Shown: in pieces, positions 16,114 through 23,418 of the stretch
Layout of the letters: every line of letters starts with the position of its first letter
Numbering within the stretch: the stretch's first letter is position 1
Assembly: GCF_022809355.1 (NCBI RefSeq)
Contig: NZ_JAKZMM010000006.1
Coordinates: forward strand, 1-64,000
Direction: 5' to 3'
From: Parabacteroides faecalis
Lineage (GTDB): Bacteria > Bacteroidota > Bacteroidia > Bacteroidales > Tannerellaceae
DNA: 64,000 nt
Notes under the pieces: generated by a model
The model's input: only the letters and a program-made list of their open reading frames with translations
Database searches by the model: none
Told to the model about the DNA's origin: nothing
Program-made: the position numbers and the translations under genes

Positions 16114-16479
16114 TCAGTATTGGATTGACAAACTTCTGAGATTGTTTTTTCCCGTTAGCTCTACAATCAGATAACCGGATGAACTTTCCGGTGAAATGGA
16201 TTGGAACTGGTAATCTGAAGCGGGTTCTATCTTGAGTTGACCTTGTTGGGCTCGCTTCAAATCCGGAATGAACCAGATACTCGCTTTGTCTCCGGAAGGA
16301 TATTCTCTCCATTGACAAGAAAATCCTTGTGCTGTGTTGGAGTAAGAATCCAATATGCCGCCAATTGCCATGGGATAAGTTCTGGATAAGAACGGAAAGA
16401 AGTCTTGGGTTTCAATCTGTGGCCACCAGGAATCGTAATCTAACGATAAGTGGCTGAATATCTTTGATGTATATCTTAG
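16114..16479 (-). pseudogene. 3' remnant of an unidentified gene
   Basis: An open stretch of about 120 codons that reads like real protein, including SLDYDSWWPQIE, YPMAIGGILDSYS and GYLIVELTGKNNLRSL, and ends in a normal stop just upstream of the GH2 gene. It has no credible start: a TAG interrupts the frame immediately upstream, where the AT-rich island begins. I do not recognise the family. Its position suggests it was the gene before GH2 in the carbohydrate locus and lost its 5' part when the island was inserted or the region was rearranged. Confidence 0.5.
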
Positions 16480-16498
16480 CTAAAGAGGTAATCTCCCG

Positions 16499-16693
16499 CT
16501 ATTGCTCCATCTTTGGATTGCTTTGTTTTGCACAAGGTCTCGTGGATGTTTCCTGTTGCAAGGATAGTTTTCTATTCTGAGAATCCCGCATTTCGTATAG
16601 ATTTTCTTCATTTATCTTTTCAAGTTCATCTTGAAAGCGTTCCCATGTCCTTAAATCCTCATGTCAACTTTCTAATTCTTCCCAATCGTCCAT
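16499..16693 (-). pseudogene. Small gene with an early stop, last in the island operon
   Basis: ATG at 16693 lies 6 bp after the stop of the ATP-binding protein. The frame reads MDDWEELES, then TGA at 16664-16666, then continues open for 54 codons (HEDLRTWERFQDELEKI and so on) to TAG at 16499. The content is charged and helical. A TGG codon at the stop would restore a 64-residue protein. Family not recognised. It may be an accessory small protein of the operon inactivated by one mutation, or chance open sequence. Confidence 0.4.
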
Positions 16694-16699
16694 AGCTCT

Positions 16700-18076
16700 T
16701 TATTCTATAATCTGCCAATATCCTTGTTTCCTGCCTCCTACACGTTTCAGTAAGCCAATTTCTTGAAGTCGGGAAAGATTGTACTTTACGCCATCTTCTG
16801 TAATGTTAGAAAGACTCTTGCTTATCTCTTTTCGAGTTGCTTCTGGGTGTTCTTTTAAGAATGAAAGTATAGCTTGCTGTTGTTCTGTTAGGTTTTGCAT
16901 ACCCTTTTGGGTAGTCTTTTGGGTAGTCTTTTGGGTAGTCCTCTGGTCGTCTTGGATAGTTGCCCTTTCAGGATACTCAAAATTGAATATAGTCCAAATG
17001 CCCGAAGCGTCATAGCGGAACTCAGGTGTGGAAAATCCGTCTTTCTTACAAGCTATAATGATACGCTCAATACCACGTCCCCATGCCTCAATCTCACCGG
17101 AACGAAAGAAGGTATTGGCAATGTCGGGGTTATATGGAAAACTGCGATGAGAAGACAACAATGTTTCTACTGTCCATCCGTCTGGCAATACACCTCCATT
17201 TACTATTTCCAGTTTGTTCTCATATACACGGATTTGTATGGGAGAAGGCTCTGCATAATCTTTGTTGATACAAGCATTTAGTAATGCTTCACGCAGTGCT
17301 TCTCTCGGCATGGGCAATGTTTCGATGCGGTGAATACCCTCGTAGGTAATAATGGCTTTCATGTATTTGGTACACAGTAAGTCCATCAGTTTTATAATTT
17401 GCTGGAACAGATTGCCATGTACTTCATCTTGGTATACCAAGTCCATTTCTTCGCGAAAGAAACCTACCTTTACGAAAGCTCCGGTTACATATCGTTCCGG
17501 ATCGGTATGAAACAGCAAAGCGGCAGCACGTTTCAAATAATCACCTTCATAAAGCCGGAGCTTCTCCAACAAGCCGTGATTATCATCCATCAAATCTGCA
17601 TCATCCATGCGTCCGCTCCGTTTCGCATACTTACGGAACAAGTCGAATGTGGCATTATCCAAATCCTCTACTTTCAGGTAAGGAACAGGCACACCGTCCC
17701 ATGTTTTACCTTGTTTGCGAAGCATGAAACGGTCGAGTGCTGCACCTTTCAGTTCCTGATTGGTTGCACCACTTCGCTGGTAATATTTGCCGCGAAAGCT
17801 GATAGGATAAGGATATGCTTCTGCCGCAATCTCCAGATATTGTTTATCGTCTTTTTCTTTCAGATTAACCTCTACCAAGATACCAAGCATGTCACGTACC
17901 TTGTTGGGAATATCCTCCATCAGTTTCTTTGCATCCTGCACACCGCATACTTCACCACTGTCTTTTATACCGATGTATAGCATACCGCCTTGTGCATTGG
18001 AAAAGCCGCATATCCATTTCAGATATTCGTCACGCCAAGATTCTTTGAACTCTATGTTTTGGGATTCGATGTTCAT
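16700..18076 (-). CDS. AlbA_2/Schlafen-like ATP-binding protein with C-terminal winged helix
   Basis: A 458-residue protein. Residues 1-115 match the AlbA_2 (Schlafen AAA-4) nucleic-acid-associated domain: IEFKESWRDEYLKWICGFSNAQ and GGMLYIGIKDSGEV. Residues about 230-365 look like a HATPase_c_4 region (MPREALREALLNACINKDY, WGRGIERII) as in RecG-like transcriptional regulators. A TTQK-repeat linker (about 378-392) leads to a winged helix (LTEQQQAILSFLKEHPEATRKEI). Such proteins are predicted ATP-dependent regulators or nucleic-acid enzymes and are frequent in defence islands. It is the last intact gene of the minus-strand island, 28 bp after the gene at 18105. Function within the operon is unknown. 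Confidence 0.8.
   Translation of the reverse strand: MNIESQNIEFKESWRDEYLKWICGFSNAQGGMLYIGIKDSGEVCGVQDAKKLMEDIPNKVRDMLGILVEVNLKEKDDKQYLEIAAEAYPYPISFRGKYYQRSGATNQELKGAALDRFMLRKQGKTWDGVPVPYLKVEDLDNATFDLFRKYAKRSGRMDDADLMDDNHGLLEKLRLYEGDYLKRAAALLFHTDPERYVTGAFVKVGFFREEMDLVYQDEVHGNLFQQIIKLMDLLCTKYMKAIITYEGIHRIETLPMPREALREALLNACINKDYAEPSPIQIRVYENKLEIVNGGVLPDGWTVETLLSSHRSFPYNPDIANTFFRSGEIEAWGRGIERIIIACKKDGFSTPEFRYDASGIWTIFNFEYPERATIQDDQRTTQKTTQKTTQKGMQNLTEQQQAILSFLKEHPEATRKEISKSLSNITEDGVKYNLSRLQEIGLLKRVGGRKQGYWQIIE
16904..16939. repeat. Three perfect 12-bp tandem repeats inside the ATP-binding protein gene
   Basis: CTTTTGGGTAGT occurs three times head to tail and encodes the TTQK linker repeats on the minus strand. 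Copy number could change by slippage without shifting the frame, altering linker length. Confidence 0.85.
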
Positions 18077-18104
18077 CTTTTATCATAATAATAGTATATG
18101 ATTA

Positions 18105-19040
18105 TTATAACTCACGATATATCGCAATTGGGTCAATGATGCATTCATTATCAAGCCTTCCTAAAAAGAATTTTTCTACGTTTGTTAGTTTGTCTGACAG
18201 ATTCAAACAAGCATTCTTTAAACTATTTGGAATATGTTCTGCTAATGGCTCCATTGTTTTTCCAGATTGAGTAACTATGCCTATCATTGTAAAATCATAT
18301 TCTGTTTGCCTTGAATATTTTGAAACAAATTGCGCTTCTGTATCTCGTAAATACTCTCTATTAAGAATAGCTGAGAATTGGAACGGAAGTTCGTTTGGTG
18401 ATACTCTAAATTCTAGTTCTCCATGGAATCCATATTCCATAATGTTCAACATATGCTTTATGTCATTTTCTGCTATGTGTAACCCGTTTTTTTGTAAATA
18501 AGAAGTAAGAGCTTTATTAGCTTGCTGTTTGATGTTTTTTATTTTTGCTCTTTGATTTCTATCATTCGTAGATTTTAACGCATTTGATGCGATATCATTA
18601 AGCGTTGTTATTTCTTCCTTATGCTGAAAATATCCAAAGGACTCACCAAGGCTATTAAAATGAGACATTGTAGACTGTAATGTGCGATAATCATTAAATA
18701 CAGCACGCCCGATAATTTTAACAATTCCTTTTGTTTGAATTGTATCGGTTGTATCTTCAGGTGTGATGGCATACAGAATACCTCTATTTGTCAATTCAGT
18801 TTCTAAAAGATTGAACGCATAGTCGTGTAGATATTTCTTCTCGGCAGAAGCCTTCTCTATTTTCAGAAGGTCACTCATGATTTTCCCACTTGCGAACATT
18901 CCTTTCTGACTCTCTTCTTCAGTAAGCGATGCTGCATTTTCCGAGATAATATACTCTGTAAAGCCTTGAAACAATTGCGATGAAAGAGAGTATAATTTAT
19001 AATCGTCCAGATATATAAATGATTTAATGTTTTGTCCCAT
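18105..19040 (-). CDS. DUF6414-like protein, unknown function
   Basis: A 311-residue soluble protein. The ATG at 19040 is preferred (MGQNIKSFIYLDDYKLYSLS); the longer frame begins at TTG. The N-terminal FIYLDDYKLYSLSSQLFQG resembles my recollection of the DUF6414 family, found next to defence genes. The middle is helical, with Lys/Asn-rich stretches (RNQRAKIKNIKQQANKALTSY), and the C-terminal half looks alpha/beta. No catalytic motif is recognised. It overlaps the upstream 56-residue membrane gene by 17 bp, implying translational coupling, and precedes the Schlafen-like gene by 28 bp. AT-rich like the rest of the island. A role as the cytosolic partner of the two small membrane proteins is inference. 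Confidence 0.65.
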   Translation of the reverse strand: MGQNIKSFIYLDDYKLYSLSSQLFQGFTEYIISENAASLTEEESQKGMFASGKIMSDLLKIEKASAEKKYLHDYAFNLLETELTNRGILYAITPEDTTDTIQTKGIVKIIGRAVFNDYRTLQSTMSHFNSLGESFGYFQHKEEITTLNDIASNALKSTNDRNQRAKIKNIKQQANKALTSYLQKNGLHIAENDIKHMLNIMEYGFHGELEFRVSPNELPFQFSAILNREYLRDTEAQFVSKYSRQTEYDFTMIGIVTQSGKTMEPLAEHIPNSLKNACLNLSDKLTNVEKFFLGRLDNECIIDPIAIYREL

Positions 19041-19194
19041 AATTCCCAAATTCTATTTTTCTTTTTTCTTTTCTGTCGTTATATTGTTTAATATTTTCCT
19101 TTCTCGTTTTTATGATTAATCTAATACCATATACGATACAGCCTAATGAAAATACTCCGACTATTCCTACATATATACAATCAATTGTTCCCAT
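19024..19194 (-). CDS. 56-residue membrane protein in the island
   Basis: A small gene starting MGTIDCIYVGIVGVFSLGCI with one transmembrane helix (about residues 6-28), then a strongly basic tail (IKTRKENIKQYNDRKEKRK). It overlaps the previous gene by 14 bp (19181-19194) and the next by 17 bp (19024-19040). The tight double overlap on one strand, hydrophobic-then-basic layout and codon use argue that it is real. No family recognised. Topology predicts N-out/C-in with the basic tail in the cytoplasm. Confidence 0.6.
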   Translation of the reverse strand: MGTIDCIYVGIVGVFSLGCIVYGIRLIIKTRKENIKQYNDRKEKRKIEFGNYGTKH

Positions 19195-19606
19195 AATAGC
19201 GTTGTATTTTTAACATGACATTCCAACTAAAAACAAAGGATGCAACACTCATCAAAATAGAGCATATATAAGTACTAGTAATACTTAAAATTTTAACGGC
19301 AAGAAGTTCAGATATATATATCATTCCCAACGTGATTGCAAGTAAAATAATTAATAATAGAGATAGTCCTAATACTCTATCTTTATTAGGTTGAGCTACG
19401 TGGCTCTCAACCTTTTTAGATTTGTTTTTCAATCCATTGAGTTCATTTATATTTGAAATATTAAGAGTTAATCCGAAAAATACAATGTCTATAGGACTGA
19501 CAGCAGAGCCAACAGGATTTTTTAATACCCAAAAACATATCAGTCGAATAAATAGGGGTAAGGCCGCTACCAATACTGTATATATTAGCCAACGTTCAAA
19601 TTTCAT
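19181..19606 (-). CDS. Four-helix membrane protein of unknown function in the island
   Basis: A 141-residue protein starting MKFERWLIYTVLVAALPLFI. Hydrophobic segments lie at about residues 6-28, 38-50 (weaker), 80-105 and 106-130, with a charged loop (LKNKSKKVESHVAQPNKDRV) between the second and third. It starts 20 bp after the DUF262-HNH nuclease gene and overlaps the next gene by 14 bp. No family recognised. In this context a membrane effector or sensor linked to the restriction core is possible but unproven. Confidence 0.65.
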   Translation of the reverse strand: MKFERWLIYTVLVAALPLFIRLICFWVLKNPVGSAVSPIDIVFFGLTLNISNINELNGLKNKSKKVESHVAQPNKDRVLGLSLLLIILLAITLGMIYISELLAVKILSITSTYICSILMSVASFVFSWNVMLKIQRYYGNN

Positions 19607-19626
19607 ATTTCAATCAATTTGTTATA

Positions 19627-20736
19627 TTATTTCCCTCCTTTAATCCTATTACAATTCTTACAAAGCATCTGGCAGTTCTCTGCCACAGTTGTACCACCTT
19701 CTTTCCAAGGCGTGATATGGTCAGCTTCCATTTCCTCCAGTTCAAAATGTTTACCGCAATGTACGCAAATACCTTTCTGACGTTCGTAGGCTTCACGTTT
19801 TTGTTTCTTGTCAAAAGTGCGAAAACTTAGGTCGCGCAGGTCTCCACTTAGGACATAACGATAAATACCAGACTTCTTCATAATTTCGTCATCCTCCATT
19901 AAGTCGTGTATCTGCTTTTCGAGAGTTGCTGTATTATATACGTTTTCACCAAACTCATCGTACATAGCTCCCCAATCCAAGCCTTTCATTTCGCGGCGGT
20001 ATTTGATAAATGTTGAACGTATCCATGTGATGATTGATACGAAGTAAGCCCAAAGTTTATTGGCATTCGGGTCAAACTGATGTAGTGCCATGTATTTGTC
20101 GATGCTTTCCACACCGTCATGACGAGCCGCCCATTTTAAGATAGTCTCCAAGTATGTCTGCTCTATGGCATTGCCATTCAAGAAGTCGGCTCCCATTTTG
20201 TAAGCCGGACATCCATTCTTTGAAAAATGCCTACGTGCGTCTGTCACGAAAGGTCCGGCATAGACGGCATTCAACAATTCTTGGTCGAGAAGTTTTTCTC
20301 CTGCAATATTGATTACACGAAACCAATCCAGTTTTTCTTTATCTGTTCCTTCACAAAAATAGACTGTTAATTCATAATTGAGGAACTTTTCTTTTTCTTC
20401 AGCTGTAAGTGTTGAAAAATAAAGTGTACCTCGATCAGGGTCAACTATGTTGAAGTCATGAGTATAGAACCCACAGATTGAAAGAGTACGTTGTTGTCCA
20501 TCAATCATTTCATAATTGTCGTTATTATCCACACTCCAATACATAATATTGAGTGGAAACCCTTTAAGTATAGTGTCTATTACAGCCTGTTGTTGTTTTT
20601 CGTCATAACGGAACTCTCGTTGATAGGGTGGACGTATATCCAACTTTCCATGGTAGCCTTTAACACCTGTATCTGGATCATTGACATAACCGTCAATAAG
20701 ATCTGCTATTTTTATTGATTTTAGTTCTATTTTCAT
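19627..20736 (-). CDS. DUF262 and HNH endonuclease domain protein (restriction-like)
   Basis: A 369-residue protein. The N-terminal 200 residues form a DUF262/ParB-like nucleotide-binding domain with the diagnostic MIDGQQRTLS motif near residue 77 and PPYQREF near residue 37. The C-terminus is an HNH nuclease with paired zinc-binding cysteines (CVHCGKHF and CKNCNR) and the ADHITPW core. DUF262 nucleases include GmrSD and SspE-type enzymes that hydrolyse nucleotides and cut foreign or modified DNA. Here a methyltransferase gene ends 5 bp upstream, so a type II-like restriction-modification pair is the simplest reading: this protein would cut unmethylated DNA. Recognition sequence unknown. Confidence 0.85.
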   Translation of the reverse strand: MKIELKSIKIADLIDGYVNDPDTGVKGYHGKLDIRPPYQREFRYDEKQQQAVIDTILKGFPLNIMYWSVDNNDNYEMIDGQQRTLSICGFYTHDFNIVDPDRGTLYFSTLTAEEKEKFLNYELTVYFCEGTDKEKLDWFRVINIAGEKLLDQELLNAVYAGPFVTDARRHFSKNGCPAYKMGADFLNGNAIEQTYLETILKWAARHDGVESIDKYMALHQFDPNANKLWAYFVSIITWIRSTFIKYRREMKGLDWGAMYDEFGENVYNTATLEKQIHDLMEDDEIMKKSGIYRYVLSGDLRDLSFRTFDKKQKREAYERQKGICVHCGKHFELEEMEADHITPWKEGGTTVAENCQMLCKNCNRIKGGK

Positions 20737-20741
20737 GACTG

Positions 20742-21791
20742 TTATTTTTTTCTGCGGATAAGTATTCTACTATATGGAACAATAACTTCATCTCCGTTCA
20801 TCATATATAAATCACCATCAACTGCGCCTCGTTTCTGAACTTCTTTACGGTATTTTTTATGTTCAGGCTTATAAGGTTTGACTCCAGCAGCCAATCCTAA
20901 TCCTGCGATACCTACTCCAAGAATCTCAAATTGTTCTGGGTTATATTTATCCATAAATGTAATAGGAACTCCCATAACACCATTATAGTCACAAGGAATG
21001 TCTTCTGTACGGTTTATATTAATTGCATCAAAATTCTCAAATTTAGGATATTCTTCTGGAGAATAATGCTTATAAAGGATCAAGTTTTCATGACGTTCTT
21101 TGTAATCAAGGTTTGTGAACCATCTTACTCCTTTTACCCGAATATATTTTCTACCTGTTTCATCTATTCCACATCCAGCAGCATTCAATTCATAGTCATT
21201 TGGAACCCAAAATTTTCTATCTCCGCTATGAATACTTGCACCAAGCCATATTTTATTGTTCATTATTAGGGGAAATAGTTCTTTATATTTAACAGCATTT
21301 ACATTACCTATAATCAAAAACTTCTTATCATATTCAATCAATTGGGCTACATATTCTCTAAATAATGAGAATGGCGGATTAGTAACCACGATGTCTGCCT
21401 CTTTAAGCAATTCAATACATTCTTTACTCCGAAAGTCACCATCACCTTTTAATGGCATTACACCTATTTCATCAGCATTAGGAATATGATCTCCATTCTT
21501 GTCTCCTTCATAAACTAAATATACAGCTTTATCACTTTGATTTTGGCTGAATAAGTCCATATCCTGATTTTTATAACATGTGGTAATCAACTTTTTCAGT
21601 CCAAGAAATTCGAAGTTATAAGCAAAATAAGTAAAGAAGTTGCTTACACGTGGATCGTCACAGTTGCATAATACTGTTTTACCACGAAAATGTTCGCGGT
21701 AATGTTTTAGCTCATTATTGATATCATCAAGCTGAGTATAAAATTCGTCTTTCTTCGCTTCTTTAGCTTTATTCAGATTTTTGTTAGCCAT
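20742..21791 (-). CDS. EcoRI-type adenine-specific DNA methyltransferase
   Basis: A 349-residue protein of the EcoRI methylase family. The N-terminal KKDEFYTQLDDINNEL and the NPPF catalytic motif (VVTNPPFSLFREYV near residue 138) identify an N6-adenine methyltransferase using S-adenosylmethionine; VLCNCDDPRVSNFF near residue 42 is the family-typical segment. It lies 5 bp from both the upstream XRE gene and the downstream nuclease gene, giving a compact regulator-methylase-nuclease order. It should protect host DNA at the site cut by the downstream nuclease. Low G+C relative to the flanking carbohydrate genes suggests acquisition by transfer. Confidence 0.9.
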   Translation of the reverse strand: MANKNLNKAKEAKKDEFYTQLDDINNELKHYREHFRGKTVLCNCDDPRVSNFFTYFAYNFEFLGLKKLITTCYKNQDMDLFSQNQSDKAVYLVYEGDKNGDHIPNADEIGVMPLKGDGDFRSKECIELLKEADIVVTNPPFSLFREYVAQLIEYDKKFLIIGNVNAVKYKELFPLIMNNKIWLGASIHSGDRKFWVPNDYELNAAGCGIDETGRKYIRVKGVRWFTNLDYKERHENLILYKHYSPEEYPKFENFDAININRTEDIPCDYNGVMGVPITFMDKYNPEQFEILGVGIAGLGLAAGVKPYKPEHKKYRKEVQKRGAVDGDLYMMNGDEVIVPYSRILIRRKK

Positions 21792-21796
21792 ATCCT

Positions 21797-22009
21797 TTAT
21801 TCGTTTTTTCCGTTTCTAATCAATCGTCTCGCATCAATATCTAATATGGATGCTATCTTCATCAGCATTTCCAAAGATGGCTGGCTTACATTAGAACACC
21901 ACCGTGAAACTGTCGCTTCATTCTTCCCTAACTGTCCGGCAAGCCATTTCCCGGTTTTTCCTTGTTCTACCAATACTATTTTTAGTCTGTTTATCTTTTC
22001 TGTTCCCAT
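21797..22009 (-). CDS. XRE-family helix-turn-helix regulator of the island operon
   Basis: A 70-residue Cro/CI-type DNA-binding protein. I choose the ATG at 22009 (MGTEKINRLKIVL) over an upstream TTG. The helix-turn-helix spans about residues 18-50 (GKWLAGQLGKNEATVSRWC) and is followed by the conserved PSLEMLMKIASILDI. Size and place, directly before a methyltransferase and nuclease, match controller proteins that delay nuclease expression until DNA is methylated. It starts 13 bp from a candidate operator. It is the first intact gene of the minus-strand operon. Confidence 0.85.
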   Translation of the reverse strand: MGTEKINRLKIVLVEQGKTGKWLAGQLGKNEATVSRWCSNVSQPSLEMLMKIASILDIDARRLIRNGKNE

Positions 22010-22021
22010 ATTTGGCTTATA

Positions 22022-22063
22022 TTGCAAATCTGCGATAATTGATTGATGATATTTGCAAAGTTA
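22022..22063 (-). promoter_or_regulatory. Promoter and candidate operator of the island operon
   Basis: On the minus strand TAACTTTG (22056-22063) matches the -7 consensus TAnnTTTG; a TTTG about 22 bp further upstream may act as the -33 box. Between the -7 element and the XRE start are two copies of a TTTGCAA-type sequence (22052-22058 and about 22022-22029), a plausible binding pair for the XRE protein. Confidence 0.4.
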
Positions 22064-22161
22064 ATGATTAACAATGAAAATAAAACAAAGTCTTAGCAAG
22101 AATCTTCCATTTTTATATTGTAATTGTGCCTATGGAGGTCGTATCAAGTGTCTTATACGTA

Positions 22162-22440
22162 TCATCTACTTTGCTTTCTATTGTTTTTCACTTGTCTTAC
22201 CTTCAAACTCTCCTGCATCAGGCTGTCAGAAACGGTTTTCAAATCTTTGTCGTAACCGTCAGCTTGTCCTCGTATCCATTCGATGGACTTTTCGTCACGG
22301 TGAATGTCGAACACATCATTCAGCCAAAGAATCTCTTTGGGACTGCATCCTCCCCACGAGCGGATGGCACGGAACTTCAGCGCATCGTCCGCATACTGAC
22401 ATCTGGACTGCCAAAGTTCGATGTTGCCCCAGATGCAAAT
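22162..22440 (-). pseudogene. Coding remnant upstream of the island operon, family unknown
   Basis: About 92 codons read as convincing protein (ICIWGNIELWQSR, SWGGCSPKEILWLNDVFDI, SIEWIRGQADGYDKDL) and end at TGA 22162. No ATG occurs in the frame near its beginning, so the 5' end is missing. Codons are more G+C rich than the adjacent island genes, pointing to another origin. I do not recognise the family. It may mark the other edge of the inserted island or an older mobile element. Confidence 0.45.
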
Positions 22441-22484
22441 TATTGAAAATAAATCGGATAAACTTCTTTTTCTGAATGGATTAG

Positions 22485-22515
22485 TTGCATAATTCGGGAT
22501 ACTTTGTTACTTTTG
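22485..22515 (+). promoter_or_regulatory. Promoter of the HU-like gene
   Basis: TTG at 22485-22487 and TACTTTTG at 22508-22515, separated by 20 bp, fit the Bacteroidota -33/-7 promoter. It would give a leader of about 135 nt that contains the four-dyad array at 22532. Confidence 0.5.
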
Positions 22516-22531
22516 TAACGATAAGTAAAAC

Positions 22532-22616
22532 TTTTCAGCCTAATGAGAAGTCCTTTTCATTCCTATGAAAAACACGTTTCTCCTAAGTGAAAAGCACATA
22601 TCATCCAGTTGAAAAA
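22532..22616. repeat. Array of four dyads at 22-bp period in the HU-like gene leader
   Basis: Four imperfect palindromes have left halves TTTTCAGCC, TTTTCATTCC, GTTTCTCC and ATATCATCC and right halves ending GAGAA or GAAAA. The shared C of the TTTC-like motif falls at 22536, 22558, 22580 and 22602, exactly 22 bp apart. It lies between the promoter and the start codon. The four-unit layout matches arrays at 37670, 50881 and 60157. Confidence 0.65.
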
Positions 22617-22658
22617 TAATGTGATAACTTGATTACAAACTCAAAAACTTAACTCAAT

Positions 22659-23276
22659 ATGGCTATTGAATTCGAATTTTACCAGTCTCCACATACATTC
22701 GGCGAGAAGACAAAAAAGTATTATCCTAAGGTTGTTAACTATCGGACGGTAACTACGCAGGAGTTGGCTGAGGAAATCCATTCCGGTTCTACCCTGACGA
22801 CGGCAGATATTCGGGCAACAATCGATGCTTTGAGCTATCAAATTGCGCAGCACTTGAGCGAAAGTGAACGGGTTCATGTTGAAGGAATCGGTTTTTTCGA
22901 GGTGAGTTTGCAATGTCCGGAAACGGAAAACCCGAAAGAAACACGCGCCGGAAAGGTAAAGTTTAAGTCCGTCAATTTCCGGGCGGATAAGGCTTTGAAG
23001 GAGAAGATGCACAAAGCACAGACCATTCGTTCCAAACGCAAGGTACATTCGTCTGCTTTCTCGCCGGAAAAGATGGATGAAAAGCTGACGGTTTATTTCC
23101 AGACGAACTTGTTTTTGATGCGTCGTGACTTGGAACAGCTTTGTGGCCTGACTCAAATTACGGCGAACCGCCAACTGAAACGGCTGATCGAGGAAAAGAA
23201 ACTGAAAAATATGGCCACACGTTATCATCCTGTTTATGTCCCGATGCCGGGCTGGTACGGGAAAGAAGCGGAATAG
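22659..23276 (+). CDS. HU-like DNA-binding protein with C-terminal helix-turn-helix region
   Basis: A 205-residue protein. Residues 1-115 fit the HU/IHF-like family of Bacteroidota (HU-HIG type): YYPKVVNYRTVTTQELAEEI, then TLTTADIRATIDALSYQIAQHL and HVEGIGFFEVSL, which corresponds to the DNA-binding beta-arm base. Residues about 135-190 form a helix-turn-helix-like segment (FLMRRDLEQLCGLTQITANRQL) typical of the longer members. It likely binds DNA as a dimer in the nucleoid. Relatives often neighbour DUF4248 and wall-hydrolase genes, as at the left end of this window. Preceded by a promoter and a four-dyad leader array. Confidence 0.8.
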   Translation: MAIEFEFYQSPHTFGEKTKKYYPKVVNYRTVTTQELAEEIHSGSTLTTADIRATIDALSYQIAQHLSESERVHVEGIGFFEVSLQCPETENPKETRAGKVKFKSVNFRADKALKEKMHKAQTIRSKRKVHSSAFSPEKMDEKLTVYFQTNLFLMRRDLEQLCGLTQITANRQLKRLIEEKKLKNMATRYHPVYVPMPGWYGKEAE

Positions 23277-23418
23277 TCCTCTTTATTATCCGAGGATTAA
23301 GTCCTGTTTGAGGGATTGGTAAGGAACATCCCAAAGAATATCGGAATTTACATTTGCGTTTCAAAAGCTTGTTCACCTGCCAATTTCTCTCTAATATTGT
23401 AGTTCAAATCGAAATATC

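Follow-up and report, generated by a model that had tools for sequence, protein, structure and literature searches.

A mobile three-gene membrane module in an exchangeable slot of a Parabacteroides faecalis restriction-modification operon

We analysed the first 64,000 nucleotides of a Parabacteroides faecalis contig (NZ_JAKZMM010000006.1; this whole stretch is called the window), in which a minus-strand operon of seven intact genes encodes, in order, an XRE regulator, a methyltransferase, a nuclease, a helical membrane protein (TM4), a single-pass membrane protein (TM1), a DUF6414 protein and an AlbA_2/Schlafen-like protein. The operon is confirmed, but its genes do not make up a single system: TM4-TM1-DUF6414 is an independent mobile module. 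With modest confidence, we favor reading the locus as a mobile type II restriction-modification (RM) operon with an exchangeable slot that holds a self-contained anti-phage or superinfection-exclusion module. This reading is based on the conserved gene order of the module, purifying ratios of nonsynonymous to synonymous substitution (dN/dS), its unrelated RM neighbors, its place between repressor and integrase genes of prophages, and the defence-type neighbors found there. It is further based on the exchange of slot contents at fixed borders, on variants that trade parts with an Mrr_cat protein, and on weak structural matches of DUF6414 dominated by OB folds. Because slot contents differ between relatives, and because the module also occurs in prophages and at other RM loci, it probably acts against viruses as a device of its own.

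The operon and its exchangeable slot

The seven genes are separated by 5, 5, 20, −14, −26 and 28 bp along the operon; genes were called as longest frames and start positions are approximate. Coordinates and Pfam matches confirmed the gene families, common strand and tight spacing given in the initial annotation of this DNA. The first gene encodes an XRE/Cro-type regulator (21797-22027; HTH_3, E = 2.4e-8), the probable controller of the RM operon. It is followed by an EcoRI-type adenine methyltransferase (20742-21791; EcoRI_methylase PF13651, 4.1e-148; PADLOC MTase_II, 1.2e-126) and a GmrSD_N (DUF262)-HNH nuclease, a type II restriction enzyme (19627-20736; PF03235, 5.3e-18; PF01844, 5.3e-14; PADLOC REase_II, 9.8e-125). 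The two enzyme genes lie 5 bp apart and fit the MTase_II and REase_II models as a type II RM gene pair, so that the RM core proposed initially is present. By these matches the three genes appear to be an ordinary type II RM core, like other type II systems that pair an EcoRI-type methyltransferase with a GmrSD/HNH nuclease, with the XRE gene and the cargo in addition. The slot extends from the nuclease stop to the AlbA_2 start (18077-19626, no strand assigned), where alignments to relatives break. The gene after it, which is constant, encodes the AlbA_2/Schlafen-like protein (16700-18076; SLFN_AlbA_2, 1.4e-16, 61.5 bits against a cut-off of 25.3; HATPase_c_4, 8.6e-18), which has additional weaker winged-helix matches in Pfam.

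We compared ten close RM loci with nucleases about 80% or more identical to that of the window (the window, L068, L069, L070, L071, L083, L084, L153, L154 and L156; in L154 and L156 only part of the nuclease frame is present, and the identity in L156 is 76-80%). Five kinds of cargo occupy the slot, and seven of the ten loci carry something other than the module. TM4-TM1-DUF6414 is found in the window, L083 and L084, and zinc-ribbon and DUF4145 proteins in L069, L071 and L154 (the last assigned by identical protein starts). A soluble and a membrane protein occupy L068 and L153, soluble, membrane and NA37 proteins L070, and a DUF4268/DUF4357 protein L156. Where the slot holds other cargo, alignment with the window ends in all seven loci at 19616-19627, the end of the nuclease, and in three of them (L068, L069, L154) it restarts at 18067-18068, the start of AlbA_2. 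AlbA_2 follows the cargo in seven of the ten, as a gene in the window, L069, L071, L084 and L154 and as a remnant in L068 and L083; L070, L153 and L156 showed none after the cargo. Cargo is swapped at fixed gene borders.

Of the nine loci where the position before the methyltransferase is visible, eight have an XRE relative there (L068, L069, L070, L071, L083, L084, L153 and the window; L157 is the exception). The more distant relatives of the core that were inspected mostly have neither an XRE gene nor cargo. Among 295 Bacteroidales genomes, 29 hold a nuclease relative at E 1e-60 or better and 37 hold any methyltransferase match.

Several further features of these loci were observed. The soluble and membrane pairs of L068 (L068:9449-11235; 329 and 266 amino acids) and L153 (L153:1229-2969; 354 and 243 amino acids) are 25% and 23% identical to each other, their soluble members have no Pfam match, and by sequence they are a candidate second module. 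A Bro-N (DinD-like) gene lies between methyltransferase and nuclease in L068 (L068:7470-8327) and L083 (L083:5453-6310); the two copies are 93% identical and appear to mark a second insertion point of the RM frame. In L083 the AlbA_2 gene appears split around the operon (L083:2883-3766 and L083:8946-9085): the 3' part lies, with the conserved element described below, upstream of XRE, and the 5' part follows DUF6414, an arrangement that the opening of a circle within AlbA_2, or recombination in a tandem array, would produce; this is a metagenome contig in which misassembly is possible.

The TM4-TM1-DUF6414 module

TM4 (19181-19606, 141 amino acids) is a helical membrane protein by hydropathy, with a structure model of predicted local distance difference test (pLDDT) 84.9. 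The four helices initially assigned to it are plausible but unproven, as hydropathy gives about three strongly hydrophobic stretches and the model five helices. TM1 (19024-19194) overlaps both neighbors and, as annotated, is a 56-residue protein with one hydrophobic stretch. Neither has a convincing family match in Pfam or PADLOC. The third gene (18105-19049; PF19952, 2.6e-22) starts with TTG, with an in-frame ATG at 19040, and its product scores 80.3 bits over residues 9-311 against the DUF6414 gathering cut-off of 25. Its model (pLDDT 79.7; predicted template modelling score 0.72; residues 30-71 below pLDDT 50) is a predicted barrel with a helical insertion. In structure searches neither DUF6414 nor TM4 had a strong match; among the weak matches of DUF6414, 37 of 50 rows are OB-fold proteins by title, as labelled by eye. 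Ten residues are invariant in an alignment of 45 DUF6414 rows, and seven of these fall at positions 13-29. Compared with L083 or L084, the three module genes have dN/dS values of 0.07-0.18 (with dS above 1 for L084) and are under selection against protein change.

TM4 and DUF6414 each occur in two of the 295 Bacteroidales genomes, that of the window and G101. In G101 the module, with the gene order of the window and with overlaps, is on contig 16, and a nuclease relative and a stop-interrupted methyltransferase are on contig 18. The same three genes occur in unchanged order in a Vibrio P2-like phage record. Scans with a three-row DUF6414 alignment yielded 38 loci from genome contigs and 18 from viral contigs; together with the window, L066, from a marine Vibrio cyclitrophicus prophage, and L067 these make 59 loci (the window, L066, L067 and L083-L138). 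Once one locus lacking a frame and five identical copies of DUF6414 were removed, 53 distinct loci remained. Record titles name members of Bacteroidota, Pseudomonadota, Poribacteria, Chloroflexi, Campylobacterota, Bdellovibrionota and Chlorobi; metagenome bins are frequent among them. TM4 is in range in 48 of the 53, TM1 in 40 and all three genes in 39. TM4 was not found in range in L095, L101 and L104, in L118 it is present with a split DUF6414 that exceeded the distance limit, and the L130 contig begins inside the module. DUF6414 frames are split in L099, L102, L112, L116, L117 and L118. A viral scan with TM4 gave 11 loci, ten with DUF6414 and one (L196) without; ten of the 11 contigs were already among the 18 of the DUF6414 scan, and the two scans are not independent. 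The plasmid search found no relatives of DUF6414 or TM4. Since gene order and overlaps recur across several phyla and dN/dS is 0.07-0.18, the arrangement is more than chance.

An RM system directly adjoins the module in at least 10 of the 53 loci, a lower bound as Pfam was run on chosen neighbors only; this figure and those for prophage context are raw counts. The RM types are several and unrelated. The pair of the window type adjoins the module in the window, L083 and L084, while L085 has a C5 methylase and an MvaI/BcnI nuclease, L097 a C5 methylase with DUF4928 and Vsr, and L099 (where the DUF6414 frame is split) and L111 type ISP enzymes. Type I RM genes are found in L086, in L087, whose contig starts in hsdR, and in L088, where the module comes first. 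L117 has TerB, BrxC/D and DEAD-helicase genes as neighbors, and in L095 a SMEK-NACHT protein is encoded further upstream.

In 12 of the 53 loci the module has a CI-type repressor on one side and a P2-type integrase on the other, in some with further genes between. Four related phages carry in this slot a PH-domain gene, acyltransferase-like and lipase-like genes, an AAA protein with a hypothetical protein, or orf2 and Glo. Glo of phage K139 is annotated as a periplasmic phage-exclusion gene, and the excerpted text of PMC8537503 reports its involvement in phage exclusion. The module occupies the same slot as Glo and these other genes of P2-like Vibrio phages but is an unrelated three-gene anatomy, whereas Glo is a single gene. 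Four of the six prophage neighbors tested were informative, matching KAP_NTPase, DUF4041 with T5orf172, AAA_21 and AlbA_2; the 576-residue neighbor in L109 and that in L122 had no informative match. The DUF4041 and T5orf172 protein, encoded next to the module in a P2-like Vibrio prophage (L109:9122-10795), is SNIPE-like, and its T5orf172 part is presumably a GIY-YIG nuclease domain. In L118 and L135 a series of small genes, judged by eye to resemble a filamentous phage and including a Zot-like frame, precedes a module whose DUF6414 is split, and the module may also ride on inoviruses.

In a tree of 44 DUF6414 proteins the three modules linked to EcoRI/GmrSD pairs cluster (100/100) and form, with the type I-linked, MvaI-linked and G101 modules, a group of eight (98/91), all from Bacteroidota. 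Ten of the 11 prophage modules in the tree share a group of twelve (100/98) and the remaining one, L136, is on a very long branch; RM-linked modules of Chloroflexi and Poribacteria are in a separate group of five (99/98). As RM-linked modules fall in separate groups, module and RM genes have met more than once or the module moves between RM loci. Two loci appear by sequence to be variants that trade parts with a restriction-type Mrr_cat protein. In Sulfurovum (L101:7095-8942) a PemK-like gene, an Mrr_cat gene and DUF6414 are consecutive, and neither TM4 nor TM1 was found there; in L196 an Mrr_cat protein accompanies TM4 without DUF6414.

Proposed function and alternatives

We consider anti-phage activity of the module quite probable. 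TM4 and TM1 would form an inner-membrane assembly, and our confidence that the two make a complex is evenly divided. Held beneath it would be DUF6414, a soluble protein that perhaps folds as an OB-like barrel bearing a helical insertion. On binding the DNA of an incoming phage, or a DNA intermediate, DUF6414 would either block that DNA or activate the membrane part; DNA binding by DUF6414 is a tentative proposal. As RM cargo, the module would add a second layer, directed at phages that restriction fails to stop.

No PADLOC model is convincing for the module, so that by sequence it matches no system catalogued there. The TM4, TM1 and DUF6414 proteins of the window matched nothing up to E 1, and among relatives one of 44 DUF6414 proteins (C3a55, 0.0036) and three of 45 TM4 proteins (RTasSLATT, best 0.0015) had matches; TM1 was compared as the window copy only. 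A full-text PubMed Central search, whose coverage leaves outside most subscription papers and bioRxiv's own collection, found no paper for DUF6414 or PF19952, and of the works listed in searches on RM accessory genes and P2 hotspots, none names the module in its title. The earlier statement that no described system is known to hold these extra genes stands as far as PADLOC and these literature searches extend.

In anatomy the module seems nearest to Kiwa, in which, according to excerpts of PMC12904381, a membrane tetramer senses infection and a partner binds phage DNA. Both combine a multi-helix membrane protein with a soluble partner, the module being known from anatomy alone. It differs in its third gene, TM1, and in that DNA binding by DUF6414 is only proposed; neither the window proteins nor the 44 DUF6414 and 45 TM4 relatives match any Kiwa model, and no KwaA or KwaB homologue was identified by this comparison. 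A Kiwa-like course of events is, on this analogy, rather doubtful. SNIPE, described in part of PMC13190303, is a membrane-anchored protein that acts on injected phage DNA and unites DUF4041 with a nuclease domain. Membrane anchoring of a DNA-acting protein is also what we propose for the module, and a SNIPE-like gene adjoins it in L109, but the module consists of separate proteins without a nuclease domain recognised by Pfam.

An alternative that we consider unlikely is that the module is an abortive-infection device watching an RM enzyme, as PrrC does with EcoprrI, or as PARIS senses an anti-restriction protein. A phage that inhibits restriction or makes DNA ends would cause DUF6414 to release the membrane pair, and membrane damage would follow. 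In at least 10 of the 53 loci the module lies directly before or after restriction genes, of unrelated types, and the guardians PrrC and PARIS are accessory genes at RM loci (PMC12707154, in part). The three weak RTasSLATT matches among TM4 relatives also point this way, SLATT domains being membrane effectors. However, PADLOC found no sequence relation to these guardians, 43 of the 53 loci have no recognised RM system directly beside the module, and the prophage copies need no RM partner nearby.

It is similarly unlikely, in our judgement, that the module has no role in defence and is a portable membrane module for envelope stress, lysogen fitness or element maintenance, brought to the same islands by shared mobile elements. 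Several observations favor this and weigh against our preferred reading. More than half of the 53 loci have neither RM nor CI-integrase context, many have no defence neighbor, some lack both mobile and defence neighbors or lie among genes judged by eye to be housekeeping, and solitary DUF6414 relatives exist. On the other side are the insertion of the module beside several unrelated RM types and its presence in the prophage slot that holds an exclusion gene in K139.

Joint action of all seven genes (RM core, membrane module and AlbA_2) as one defence system, as the initial annotation proposed from tight spacing on one strand, is very improbable and was rejected on gene neighborhoods (295 Bacteroidales genomes, 53 DUF6414 loci). 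Module and RM core are also joined in L083 (with AlbA_2 remnants) and L084 (with an AlbA_2 gene), but the module has this RM pair in only 3/53 loci and 7/10 close RM loci carry other cargo. Most homologues of the products encoded at 19181 and 18105 stand apart from this methyltransferase and nuclease, the outcome that the annotation itself had named as refuting its proposal.

We return to the preferred reading of an RM operon carrying a self-contained module. If protective, the module (about 1.5 kb here) would be a compact addition to membrane-linked defences and would give DUF6414 a function. Somewhat short of even confidence, we suggest that it represents a family of anti-phage systems, as yet undescribed, that are portable and membrane-linked, occur in several phyla and are built of interchangeable parts (the membrane pair, the OB-like DUF6414, the Mrr-type nuclease). 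The family would travel both as an exclusion set of P2-like prophages and as RM-operon cargo swapped at fixed borders, with the RM genes as delivery frame. The general idea is of an RM core as a frame with a neighboring slot in which second-layer defences are swapped at fixed gene borders, and genes beside restriction genes may belong to such a frame as cargo rather than to the restriction system.

Composition and borders of the operon

GC content along the operon is a mosaic. The initially reported AT-rich composition holds for the module (DUF6414 33.4%, TM4 30.8%, TM1 26.9%), the methyltransferase (33.1%) and the N-terminal part of the nuclease (34.6%), but not for AlbA_2 (42.7%) or the C-terminal part of the nuclease (42.8%); the whole window has 45.8%. 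Horizontal gain, also proposed initially, is borne out in that parts move between genomes. The gene fragments described at both edges are unproven: the frame at 16114-16371 has no Pfam family match and nothing else similar in its own genome, and 22060-22480 has weak matches only, with no clear meaning. The suggestion that 22060-22480 is a remnant of the relaxase-like gene of L068 was unsupported on comparison. The broken eighth frame is as annotated, with an ATG at 16693 and a stop after nine residues. An empty-site search in the genus matched the flank in 3 of 38 genomes, in two of them over short stretches only, and for this reason the ends of the island and the direction of transfer are not fixed.

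Downstream of AlbA_2, at the 3' end of the operon, about 120-135 bp of non-coding sequence (16422-16555, minus strand) form a conserved element that recurs in L068, L069 and L083. It has no Rfam match up to E 5, and no 12-base repeat of it was found at 21901-23400. A second copy in the same genome (C14:30585-30706; L175:9586-9707) is 89% identical; an integrase-like frame lies about 330 bp away and a SEFIR-like gene close by (both labelled by eye). The element is a possible recombination site.

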